Shown: positions 47,631 to 53,000 of the stretch, one piece after another
How the letters are laid out: every line of letters begins with the position of its first letter
Position numbering within the stretch: position 1 is the first letter of the stretch
NCBI GenBank assembly: GCA_016165875.1
Contig: JABBOT010000003.1
Location: forward strand, 25,934,983-25,998,982
DNA from: Acanthopleura granulata
Taxonomy: Eukaryota > Mollusca > Polyplacophora > Chitonida > Chitonidae
Direction: 5' to 3'
Length of the DNA stretch: 64,000 bases
The notes under the pieces: model-generated
What the model saw: the letters and a program-made list of their open reading frames with translations, nothing else
What the model was told of the DNA's origin: nothing
Databases searched by the model: none
Program-made: the position numbers and the translations under genes

Positions 47631-50077
47631 TTATTTAGTTATACCAAGCTTTTGCTGTAGGAACTTGGATGAGATTTTCTTGGCGTGTTTTTTAAGGTAC
47701 TCCATCCCAGCATGCTTCTGCCATTCTTCCTCGAAGACGTTTTCCAGGATCTCTGCCCCTCTTTTGCGTGTCAGCCCAGTCTCATCCACACTCAACTCAC
47801 ACATCTGCATGTCATCCACACCTGTATCATAAAGGTGAGCTTGTTACAAAACATGTGATGCTTTGATATGGAATTGAGTGCCTTTCCGAAAAGCTAAAAT
47901 CAAAGGTTTCAGTATTCGCTGTCTGGGATAAGGTAGTGTGTTGGTGGGACATAACATATCTGCTTCGTAAGATTTTCATTAAATATTGTGATAGACAAGG
48001 AAAAACAGAAAGACAGGAGCAATATTTACCTCTGAAGAGAACCATGGTCAATGAAAGAGGAGTTCGAACAGTCAATATATGAAATTCAATTACAGCCTTT
48101 ATTTCAGCATTCCAAGAGTAATAAAACTTGGCAACATCTAACAAGTAATCTGTTACAGGATATATAATATTACAATTTGAGTGTCTTGTGCGATAAATCA
48201 TGCAACATAATGAAGTTTGAAATTTTGACAAAAGTCAAAAATCTCTCTGTCAAATGTGCCCTGAAATGGGGAAACTTCCTGACATGATGCATACAGACAA
48301 TACTTTTACAATTTATTGCAGAAATACAATACCAAAGAATGTTTCACATATAAACAGGATTACATGTATATGCATAGTAGATATCCTCCATCTCCCTATG
48401 TTGGAGACACAAGCATTACATCTACACCTACTTACCAGAGACCAGAAGAACGGGTGGTTTGTCAGGGTGCAGCTCCATCTGCCGAGCAATCCACTTCCCA
48501 TCAAAGTGAGCATACCAGGAACCCCGCTTACGGCCCTCTTCGTGCTGATCTTCTGATGGACGAACAAATGGAATGCGGAAATAACGCTGCACATTCTCAT
48601 CCTTGCCACTTGTTCCATTCATCGTTGCTTCAGCTGGAGAAAGAGATGGAGAAAAGCAATGCTTAAAAGGGCACTGGACCACCAAGAAAATGATTCATTT
48701 ATATAAATGTCTGAAATGTTGATGTCTTCATTATGGAAACTTAACACAACAATATGAACACATCTGTCGTCTGCATTTTTTAATTTCAATAGACTTGACC
48801 ACTCCTACCCTAGTCTTTTCATTTCATTACTGAAAACTTTGACTTTTTTGTCCAGAAACTGTGTTGGTTTCTTTTTGAAATTGCCTCTTTTCTCAGATGT
48901 TCAGCTTCAGGTAAAGCCACATTCACTTTGTTGTAAATGGAAACATCTTTAATGAGACAATAGTTGATATATACATACTGCTTCTGGCAAATGTTACCTG
49001 AGCTTTCGTTCCTAATCTCTTTATCAAGTGAATAGCAACTTATTAGAGATCCCTGCAAGAGGGTCTGATGCCTGTGTACCATTTGAAATTTATGTGGTGA
49101 TGCTTCAGAGATAGCTATATTATTATAATAGTTAACATCTTTTTGCTTCTGTTAGAAATCTGCAAGTACATGCGACAAATCACATCCTGGAAATGTGGAA
49201 TAAGAACTGAAACTGGCTGGCAAAGACCGACCTTCTTGCATGACCGCCTCAGGGGCTCTTTCATTCTCGTCATTCTTGCCACGTTTCTTGTTTTTGGACT
49301 TCCAGCTGTGGTACACCTTTAATCGACGGTGGAACTCCTCACGGCAGGCCGCCAGCAAGTCCAAGTCTGTCAGGTAAGCAGGCAAACAATTATACAGCTG
49401 ACTCAAGGGATGCTAATGGCAAATGCTACTTCCTACCAGTTTGTTTTCTTTGTTCCTGCATGCAGTGTTTCCTTTTACAAGGCCACACTGGGCACTTACA
49501 TATTCATAGTGCTGCCCTACTGGAGTGCCATGCTGCAGACACTATATGGCATCCCATTAAGGCACATGCTAACACAGAGCCCATGAGTGTTCAGTTCAAT
49601 GGTAAGTACCCAGCAAAGAAACACCCAAGATTTAAAGCACACATAATGGCTCCTCGTGATAAAATACAACGGAGAGGTTTTCATATGAAAACATACACTT
49701 TTGAACAGAAACAACTTATTGAATTACAGATGTTCAAAAAGTTCTTAAACTAGCTCAGAAGCAGATTGGATTCTGTGCTATTCATTTGCTATTCAATTGT
49801 AGCAAGAAACAAAGACAAATGACCACACCAAGATCATCAAAATTTTATTTGTTTATTTGATTGGGTTTCACCCTCTCTACATGAAAAGTATTTACTTACA
49901 CAAGGCGATCACTTTAATATTTAGAGGAACTAAAATACAAGCAATCTGAATGTAATGTGATTATTTCACATACCACAGGATGTGTTGATGGCATCCCGGA
50001 GCTCAGCATACTTCCACTTGGACAGGTCGTACTTCTTACTGGCTGCTGCTTGTCGTTGAGCCATCACAGCAGAGGAT
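47631..50077 (-). other. MYO6: MYO6 distal tail and cargo-binding domain, four exons
   Basis: Exon 50077-49974 ([34 protein letters not shown]) is split as [13 protein letters not shown], then [15 protein letters not shown], a helical adaptor-binding segment. Exon 49366-49232 holds the RRL motif used for GIPC and optineurin-type adaptors. Exon 48633-48436 holds [13 protein letters not shown] and [20 protein letters not shown]. Here the human WWY motif, which binds Dab2 and Tom1-type adaptors, reads SWY. Exon 47821-47631 ends the protein at [11 protein letters not shown]. The donor of exon 49366-49232 is GTCGGT, weaker than the others, but it is the one that preserves frame with the next exon. 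Confidence 0.9.
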
Positions 50078-53000
50078 CTGAGGGGAGAAACAGGTAATAC
50101 AGGTGATAACACAGCAGAGGATCTGAGGGGAGAAACAGGTAATACAGGTGATAACACAGCAGAGGATCTGAGGGGAGAAACAGGTAATACAGGTGATAAC
50201 ACAGCAGAGGATCTGAGGGGAGAAACAGGTAATACAGGTGATAACACAGCAGAGGATCTGAGGGGAGAAACAGGTAATACAGGTGATAACACAGCAGAGG
50301 ATCTGAGGGGAGAAACAGGTAATACAAGTGATAACACAGCAGAGGATCTGAGGGGTGAAAGAGGCAATACAGGTGATAACACAGCAGAGGGCCTGAGTGG
50401 AGAAACAGGTAATACAGGTGATAACACAGCAGAGGGTCTGAAGGGAGAAACAGGTAATACAGGTGATAACACAGCAGAGGATCTGAGGGATGAAGAGGTA
50501 GTACAGGTGATCACACAGCAGAGAGCCTGAGGGGAGAAACAGGTAATACAGGTGATCACACAGCAGAGAGCCTGAGGGGAGAAACAGGTAATACAGGTGA
50601 TCACACAGCAGAGAGCCTGAGGGGAGAAACAGGTAATACAGGTGATAACACAGCAGAGGATCTGAGGGATGAAGAGGTAATACAGGTGATCACACAGCAG
50701 AGGATCTGAGGGATGAAGAGGTAGTACAGGTGATCACACAGCAGAGAGCCTGAGGGGAGAAACAGGTAATACAGGTGATCACACAGCAGAGAGCCTGAGG
50801 GGAGAAACAGGTAATACAGGTGATAACACAGCAGAGGATCTGAGGGATGAAGAGGTAATACAGGTGATCACACAGCAGAGAGCCTGAGGGGAGAAACAGG
50901 TAATACAGGTGATAACACAGCAGAGGATCTGAGGGGAGAAACAGGTAATACAAGTGATAACACAGCAGAGGATGAGGGGAGAAACAGGTAATACAGGTGA
51001 TAACACAGAGTCACACTCAGCCCAATTCTCCATGTGTTTGTTCTTTCTCTTCTGCTTCGCCACGATATGGCTGAGATATTGCCGATGTGGCGTTAAGCCA
51101 TAATCGTTCATTCATTCTCTTCTGCTCTTGTAGTGTAGGGTGTACTAATGTGAATATATTTATCCAGGGGTGTACTAATGTGAGTATATTCCTCCATGGG
51201 AGTAGTAATGTATAGTCCCCCAGAGAGTAGTACTGTGAGTATATTCCTTCAGGGGAGTAGTAATGTGAGTATATTCCACCAGGGGAGTAGTAATGTGAGA
51301 ATATTCCTCCAGGGAAGTAGTAATGTGAGTATATTCCTTCAGGGGAGTAGTAAGGTGAGTATATTCCACCAGGGGAGTAGTAAGGTGAGTATATTTCCCC
51401 AGAGAGTAGTAATGTGAGTATATTCCTTCAGAGGAGTAATAATGTGAATATATTCCTCCAGGAGAGTAGTAATGTGAGTATATTCCTCCAGGAGAGTAGT
51501 AATGTGAGTATATTTCTCCTGGATTGTACCAATGTACACGTATTACTCTTAGGGCATATTAAAAGGGATGTACTCTATTTAGAGTGTAGCAATATAAACA
51601 TTCCTCACCTGGTCAGTGGAGGTACGATAATGTCATCCACCTGGTTCTGGTCCTCAGCAGCCAGACGCAACGCTAACTCTCGATCTCTATGCTCCTGCTC
51701 CAGAGCATACTGCCTATAAAAGTAAACAGGTGTACGTTAACGATTTCATATGAGCTAATCATCATGTTACCTGGCAATATTATATTTAGTGATATGAATT
51801 TGCTCAATAAGGAGCATCTGTCTCTGAGAAACTGCATTTTCATCCAGCATAATTTTAAAAAATTCTTTTTTTATTTGTTAAAATTTGTCAGTGTTGTATC
51901 ATGACACAAGTTTGGCAGGAATAGCCTATCGGAAGGAAAAAGTTTCAGGTCCGTGTGTACGAGGTGTAACTCATACCATATGCCTATTACCATCACCCAC
52001 ATGATACAGAGGCATCCTATATTTTTCCATATCGTATGGTTTGTATTTGCATCCTCTGAAAAAATGGACGACTTTCAATGTTTACATTCAAACCGCCCTC
52101 TACCGGGAAAACCCCTGAACTAACATCGGAATTTGGCATGGTGTAACTACAACAACAGCAATCAAGTTGTGAAGAAAACACATTTAATATTTTCAATTCT
52201 AAAATACTAAGAAACGGCAAGCATACTCTACAAGGCCTAAGGGTAGGGACTGGGGCATTGTTTAACTTTAATTTCCAAAGAAAAACTGCATGTGGCCTAT
52301 TTTGGGTTTCAGTAAAATATAGTTCACCGTCAAACTGCAGAGGTATGGGTTTATTTCATTTAAAGTTCTGTGTTCGGCGAAAATACGCTTGAATTATATG
52401 TATTCACATAGTACATGTAGTGATAATGGCAATCTGGTTATCATGGCAACCATGCAAATGGCCAAATTTGAGTCACTACACATCGTGACATCTATATCTA
52501 AGTATCTTCCAAGAATCCAAACTGAATACGGAAAACCACTATATTTGTATAAATAACTATATTTGTCATACATAAAGTCATATGTATGACACCATATACA
52601 GTGGAAATGGTGATCTGGTTAGCAAAGCAATCGCTGAAATGGACAAATGTATGTTGTGTCACATCATCACACCTGTATCCATGTATCCACCAAAAATTAA
52701 AACCATATGTGGAAAAGAATTTGAATTACAGCCCGGACATAAATACGGACGGAGACAGACACAAACGGATAAAAACGCCACACCATTATACGAATGCCAT
52801 TACTGGCGGGTGTATAAAAAATATAAAGAGCCCTTGACATTGTGAAGGTGCAGTCAAGGATGAAGTTGTTAGATAACAACATCACATGCTAATGAAGTTG
52901 TTCTTACCTAGCCCTATCTTCCTCAGCTTCCTTGGCCAATTGAGCTTGTAGCTTTTCCTGGAATTCAACAAACAAAGAAGAAACAGGTAACCTTTGAGAA

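Follow-up and report, generated by a model that had tools for sequence, protein, structure and literature searches.

The MYO6 gene of the chiton Acanthopleura granulata has a minisatellite with a 45-bp unit lying across the 3' splice site of one of its tail exons, and this array has copied the splice site along the upstream intron. We analyzed 64,000 nucleotides of the genome (positions 25,934,983 to 25,998,982 of contig JABBOT010000003.1 from assembly GCA_016165875.1; hereafter, the window). Within the array are 20 AG acceptors, namely the canonical one, which we call A0, and 19 copies, A1 to A19. The multiplication of the acceptor can be read directly from the DNA, and we infer that the gene's products would be multiplied as well. 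The ten acceptors nearest the exon keep the reading frame and the ten upstream of them yield stops, so the array is bipartite. The main features are as follows.

47631..63056, minus strand: 3' part of the MYO6 gene, modelled by hand as 15 exons (a to o), with the TAA stop at the low end
51609..51713, minus strand: exon k (the MIU exon), with the donor CCAG/gtgagg (a slash marks a boundary)
49974..50077, minus strand: exon l, with the canonical acceptor A0 at 50079-50078
50065..51008, minus strand: 45-bp minisatellite, about 21 units, covering the acceptor and 13 nt at the start of exon l
50078..50484, minus strand: acceptors A0 to A9, open and in frame with exon 51713-51609 (codon AG/A), for 15n added residues
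50527..50930, minus strand: acceptors A10 to A19, of which 10/10 yield a premature stop
50974..51010, minus strand: outermost partial unit, without an AG (CCCCTC/ATCC at 50974/50973), after CTCTGTG (51010-51004)

By its sequence, the minus-strand gene is the class VI myosin MYO6, with a tail that is predicted to contain MIU, MyUb, and the Myosin-VI cargo-binding domain. The original prediction had also named MYO6 on this strand, and matches in Pfam, in PDB, and to another chiton bear it out. The modelled protein matches PF16521 (Myosin-VI_CBD, E = 1.1e-43) and PF21521 (MYO6_lever, E = 3.7e-9), and all 8 of the 8 PDB sequences that match it are from myosin-VI. The top protein match is an unconventional myosin-VI-like protein from the chiton Liolophura sinensis, with 625 of 649 residues identical and no gaps. 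The window holds somewhat over half of the gene, its 3' part. All 15 modelled exons (63056 down to 47631) have AG acceptors and GT donors, and the last exon closes at the stop. Exons f to o form a single unbroken reading frame, and the exon phases match around the k-l junction. The model leaves out some lever-arm exons and exons further upstream, which are visible among the open frames.

Tandem Repeats Finder (TRF) reports the array at 50065-51008 with a period of 45 and 21.1 copies, and its score of 1503 is the highest of the 39 rows for the window. From AG to AG, and in the direction of the gene, the unit is ATCCTCTGCTGTGTTATCACCTGTATTACCTGTTTCTCCCCTCAG, in which 13 nt are identical to the start of exon l and the next 32 nt to the last part of the intron. 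Exon l opens with ATCCTCTGCTGTG (50077-50065), the same 13 nt that begin the consensus unit. On the gene strand, this 13-mer occurs 13 times: 12 of the occurrences are in the array and the other is at the start of the exon, and the rest of the window is free of it. It had been claimed that the acceptor and about 12 nt of the exon lie inside a 45-bp unit that is repeated 21 times; this holds, with an exact share of 13 nt. The 19 units from AG to AG fall into nine types that show no periodic order, with five adjacent proximal units being identical, and 4 of the 19 are 44 bp long.

The array runs into unique flanking sequence on both sides. In the distal flank, CTCTGTG stands immediately before TTATCACC, and exon l has CTCTGCTGTG (50074-50065) at the corresponding place. 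The first slippage was thus likely between these short repeats, which may have served as the seed. A second row from TRF gives the same array a period of 134 (about three units) with an equal score. We considered a three-unit higher-order repeat and do not claim one, because identical unit types peak at a lag of one unit (5/18), with only 2/16 at a lag of three.

The first exonic bases for A0 to A9 are 50077, 50122, 50167, 50212, 50257, 50302, 50347, 50392, 50437, and 50482, with a spacing of 45 nt, and the choice of An (n from 0 to 9) would add n x 15 Ser/Pro-rich residues after PPLTR. Translation confirmed the earlier claim that the frame is open and that each upstream choice lengthens the stretch from the MIU helix to the next domain by 15n residues. 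The same prediction had counted ten serial acceptors, up to 50484-50483. These ten are in frame, but they are not all, as ten more AGs lie upstream. For A10 to A19, the first exonic bases are 50526, 50571, 50616, 50661, 50705, 50749, 50794, 50839, 50883, and 50928. For the region beyond unit 10, the prediction had noted 44-bp units that break the three-nucleotide periodicity. The 44-bp units are there and do shift the frame, but that account was incomplete: 7 of the 10 distal units also contain an in-unit TGA (GTGTGATC, GTG TGA), and both features lead to the stops. The nine proximal units include no 44-bp unit and no TGA (0/9).

Each unit is a plausible complete 3' splice site because it has a pyrimidine tract, an AG-free zone, UnAy adenines, and an AG. 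Specifically, pyrimidines fill 12 or 13 of the 15 positions from -18 to -4 at each site, and there is a single AG per unit, which leaves an AG-free zone of 42-43 nt upstream of each site (longer for A19, at 87 nt from AG to AG). UnAy adenines are found near -30 and -27 in 20/20 sites and near -18 in 17/20. For comparison, the excerpt of PMC1431707 that we used places the branch point, tract, and AG mostly within the final 40 nt of the intron. The search for the AG is described, in part of a source, as linear from the branch point, with the first AG downstream being found. To score the acceptors, we built a matrix from the 14 other modelled MYO6 acceptors, leaving A0 out, and took the window's 7,407 other AGs, counted on either strand, as background. 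A0 scored 8.2, A0 to A9 scored from 7.7 to 9.2, and A10 to A19 scored from 8.2 to 10.1. Each of the 20 acceptors is in the top 1.5% of the background, and only 2 of the 19 copies, those at 50347 (8.1) and 50392 (7.7), score just under A0. With a spacing of 44-45 nt and a tract of its own in each unit, the series does not consist of NAGNAG or other short tandem acceptors.

The array lies at a point in the protein where other animals have inserts. Around the junction, the window protein (LTR/SSAV) aligns without gaps to human myosin VI (LSR/GPAV; PDB chains 8w41_A and 2n12_A). The junction probably corresponds to human R1068/G1069, because 2n12_A has 82 residues, like the 1050-1131 construct, and the L is its residue 17 (the residue numbering of 8w41_A differs from that of 2n12_A). 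As far as the consulted part of PMC6823378 goes, it describes this human MYO6 construct and another, 1069-1131, that is without the alpha2-linker. The linker is described there as belonging to the long isoform, subject to alternative splicing, and able to bind clathrin, with isoforms differing in clathrin binding. Because the construct from 1069 is without the alpha2-linker, the chiton array appears to lie at the same junction as the alternative exon of vertebrates. The original prediction had put the known MYO6 inserts not far downstream; they are indeed nearby, but this understates the case, as the gap-free alignment to the PDB chains places them at the same junction.

We searched for related proteins with a 785-residue query containing nine units (with residues 401-700 scored), a 99-residue query with two units, and the 169-residue product of the extended exon. 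The homologue set was the best 120 of 2,810 protein matches (7,994 scored candidates), of which 114 were parsed and 6 were not. The MIU-to-MyUb segment has 31-34 residues in 56 of these 114 homologues, 35-43 in 9, 44-49 in 41 (47 or 48 in 38 of the 41), and at least 50 in 8. Thus, it is above 31-34 residues in 58 of the 114. The rows include many isoforms and close relatives and are not independent counts, we judged by eye that the extra residues fall exactly at this junction, and among the longest segments one or two may reflect faulty annotation. Isoforms X1 and X2 from Harpegnathos saltator differ here by exactly 15 residues, and in Toxorhynchites and Malaya the difference is 16 residues; in protein records, insect MYO6 (myosin heavy chain 95F) has an insert of 15-16 residues. 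One repeat unit would match the insect insert in size. To judge by these proteins, the R/S or R/G junction before MyUb is a widely shared, insertion-tolerant site of MYO6. The vertebrate alpha2-linker (PMC6823378, in the part consulted) and the insect insert are thus like the chiton array in giving an alternative insert at the same MIU-MyUb junction. They differ from it in being non-repeated and of other sequence, and the human insert is a cassette exon, whereas in the chiton the choice would be among acceptors within a repeat. By exact 5-mers and by eye, homology of the repeat to known MYO6 inserts was found in 0 of the 156 listed proteins. Separately, a MYO6 model from the annelid Paralvinella palmiformis (P0040) has a 91-residue Pro/Ser-rich segment here (KKPVSPSGVVSPPGEQPHRP), so another lineage has a long linker.

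We think that there is an even chance that the array is a tolerated expansion that gives rise to leaky isoforms with 15n extra residues and to products for nonsense-mediated decay (NMD). Slippage would have duplicated sequence over the intron/exon boundary, giving a 45-bp unit with a complete 3' splice site (candidate branch adenines, a tract of pyrimidines, and one AG) plus 13 nt from the exon. The spliceosome would then meet 20 near-identical acceptors. The majority of the mRNA would be spliced at the canonical acceptor or a nearby one, and the upstream copies would leak. A1 to A9 would yield MYO6 with n x 15 extra Ser/Pro-rich residues ahead of the MyUb domain, while A10 to A19 would yield premature-stop transcripts that go to NMD. 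The array would be tolerated because this junction takes inserts in many bilaterians, and a selected function is not part of this explanation. We consider that some of the upstream acceptors are probably used in this leaky way, and that a regulated function of the series is unlikely.

Several observations weigh against use of the copies. First, the matrix is weak: in leave-one-out scoring, the 14 true acceptors range from the top 0.3% to the top 44% of background, and 7 of the 14 rank no better than the top 9.8% (9.8% to 44%). Second, the full yUnAy branch site is absent from -45 to -10 in 20/20 sites. Third, none of the 156 listed proteins (the first list being the best 120 of 2,810) contains any of eight 5-mers from the repeat. 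Finally, the L. sinensis protein (P0001), which is the sole chiton protein that we found and is known from the protein alone, joins at the canonical site. The absence from protein lists is weak counter-evidence, because transcripts of A. granulata are not known to be in the database and the first list held the best 120. Also, repeats break short-read assemblies, and automatic gene models prefer simple junctions.

These same protein results favor a splicing-silent passenger, in which the downstream donor (by exon definition), together with enhancers in the exon, would hold splicing to A0 and leave the upstream copies unused. A0 also gives the smallest exon of A0 to A9, at 104 nt. On the other hand, the upstream sites are near-identical to A0 across the whole unit, with about equal scores, and the exons from A1 to A4 would be just 149 to 284 nt, which is an ordinary exon size. 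We regard a silent passenger as possible, if doubtful.

A further proposal is that repeat number and acceptor choice together would set the length of a Ser/Pro-rich linker in MYO6, in steps of 15 residues, with the stop-yielding copies capping the insert at nine units. This acceptor ladder seems unlikely to us. A related proposal is that the variable-length linker has been selected to tune cargo or ubiquitin binding, as a counterpart of the vertebrate alpha2-linker and the insect insert, with which it shares its junction. A PxxPxR motif, which is the minimal class II SH3 pattern, is kept in 9/9 proximal units, the nine units supply 17 S-P sites, and TGA is found in 0/9 proximal units versus 7/10 distal ones. 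But the TGA contrast is no evidence of selection because units copy one another, and with 5 of the 9 proximal units identical, such counts are not independent. Furthermore, the PLR of the motif is read off the splice site itself (CCCCTCAG/A).

The open frame is not meaningful either, because shuffled units of equal composition are also open. Of 5,000 dinucleotide shuffles of the unit that kept the AG, all 5,000 left each of the three frames open, and mononucleotide shuffles were open in the used frame in 78% of 20,000 cases, or in 84% of 5,000 when a second AG was disallowed. The chance that the period is a multiple of three is one in three. Nor is coding selection on the repeat supported by the 8 distinct single-base changes among proximal units, 4 of which are synonymous as compared to 34% expected (P = 0.27). 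A single-sequence AlphaFold model of the 169-residue extended exon product (mean pLDDT of 48.0, pTM of 0.28) fits an unfolded repeat and is uninformative. When the extended exon was aligned jointly with 23 full-length MYO6 proteins, residues of the repeat were dispersed across the motor, and we set this alignment aside. Overall, we consider a selected linker to be very unlikely.

We give only a slight chance to a dosage sink, in which the first-transcribed acceptors, A19 to A10, would divert a portion of the transcripts to NMD so that the level of MYO6 falls with the length of the array. All ten distal acceptors lead to premature stops, with scores from 8.2 to 10.1, and the length of the variable number tandem repeat (VNTR) in human ABCA7 is inversely correlated with ABCA7 expression (PMC5954066, in the part consulted). 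But the ABCA7 site is a donor, and that source ties the length effect to skipping of exon 19. That the copy number is an assembly artefact, by collapse or false expansion, is highly improbable: five adjacent identical proximal units are the hardest place for assembling copy number, but nine unit types follow one another without periodicity among the 19 units, and unique sequence takes over at the flanks.

Returning to the tolerated expansion, there are precedents for splice sites within repeats. To go by the title of a 1995 report by Turri, a minisatellite in a human interferon-induced transcript, which we take to be from 6-16/IFI6, reportedly gives multiple splice donor sites. As in the chiton, a splice site is multiplied in series, with a donor there and an acceptor here. 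In Epstein-Barr virus (EBV), the repeat exons of EBNA-LP are tandem repeats that carry splice sites and give proteins of variable repeat number; unlike the chiton array, these are whole repeated exons with both splice sites and much longer units, and they are viral. In intron 18 of human ABCA7, as described in the consulted part of PMC5954066, the VNTR, which has a 25-bp unit, starts with the splice donor of exon 18, and if the donor one unit downstream is used, then one repeat unit is retained in the mRNA. Like the chiton unit, the ABCA7 unit includes the splice site of an exon, but that site is a donor, 25 bp shifts the frame, and the main effect of length is the skipping of exon 19. Also, length polymorphism has been measured for ABCA7, whereas the chiton array is known from one assembly. 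The human donor minisatellite and the ABCA7 isoforms imply that splice sites can be multiplied by a tandem repeat and that a copied site is usable.

The chiton array overlaps the exon/intron boundary and its units have the splice-site consensus (20 AGs, scoring from 7.7 to 10.1). It is set apart from both donor cases by multiplying an acceptor, that of exon l. The tandem acceptors already described, NAGNAG among them (PMC3250501 and PMC2423196, each consulted in part), are also serial acceptors that can insert whole codons, but NAGNAG acceptors are three bases apart, versus 44-45 bases in the chiton, with a complete 3' splice site in each of twenty copies. In literature titles and the openings of abstracts, with subscription papers mostly outside this scope, we found no acceptor minisatellite with copied acceptors, and for myosin VI together with minisatellites a single paper, on narcolepsy, turned up. 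For long-read RNA from chitons, the six entries listed contained nothing of use. The chiton array differs from the human donor cases in that the multiplied site is an acceptor, the frame is kept, the outer half yields stops, and the junction is alternatively used in other animals.

The intron between exons k and l contains a second array:

51138..51519, minus strand: second minisatellite of the same intron, 30 bp x 12.9 (TRF)

Together, the two arrays account for 86% of the intron, and the short non-tandem stretch between them resembles an interspersed element. On the plus strand of 50065-51519, both arrays contain donor-like motifs (CAG/GTAATA in the 45-bp unit and GTGAGTAT in the 30-bp unit), which matter only given antisense transcription. 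Elsewhere in MYO6, a 33-bp x 4.5 array (59089-59235) lies in the intron between exons d and e, and a 26-29 bp array (54780-54960) ends right before the acceptor AG of exon h (54779-54778). The latter serves as a within-gene control: it does not multiply the acceptor because, by eye, its other copies lack an AG at the corresponding place. Downstream of MYO6, also on the minus strand, an open frame at 31539-32018 matches the cyclophilin-type peptidyl-prolyl isomerases (PF00160, E = 6.2e-10). A 264-residue open frame at 23759-24550 (minus strand) has a very high content of R, S, K, D, and E, as RS-domain proteins do, and matches no Pfam family at E <= 0.001.

Engineered genes are the usual system for studying competition among identical 3' splice sites. 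In the chiton gene, a single intron presents twenty near-identical acceptors, ten of which would have distinguishable products and ten of which would report on NMD. If our explanation is correct, then the copy number of a minisatellite would be linked to protein length in a conserved motor, at the junction that distinguishes the clathrin-binding isoform in humans.

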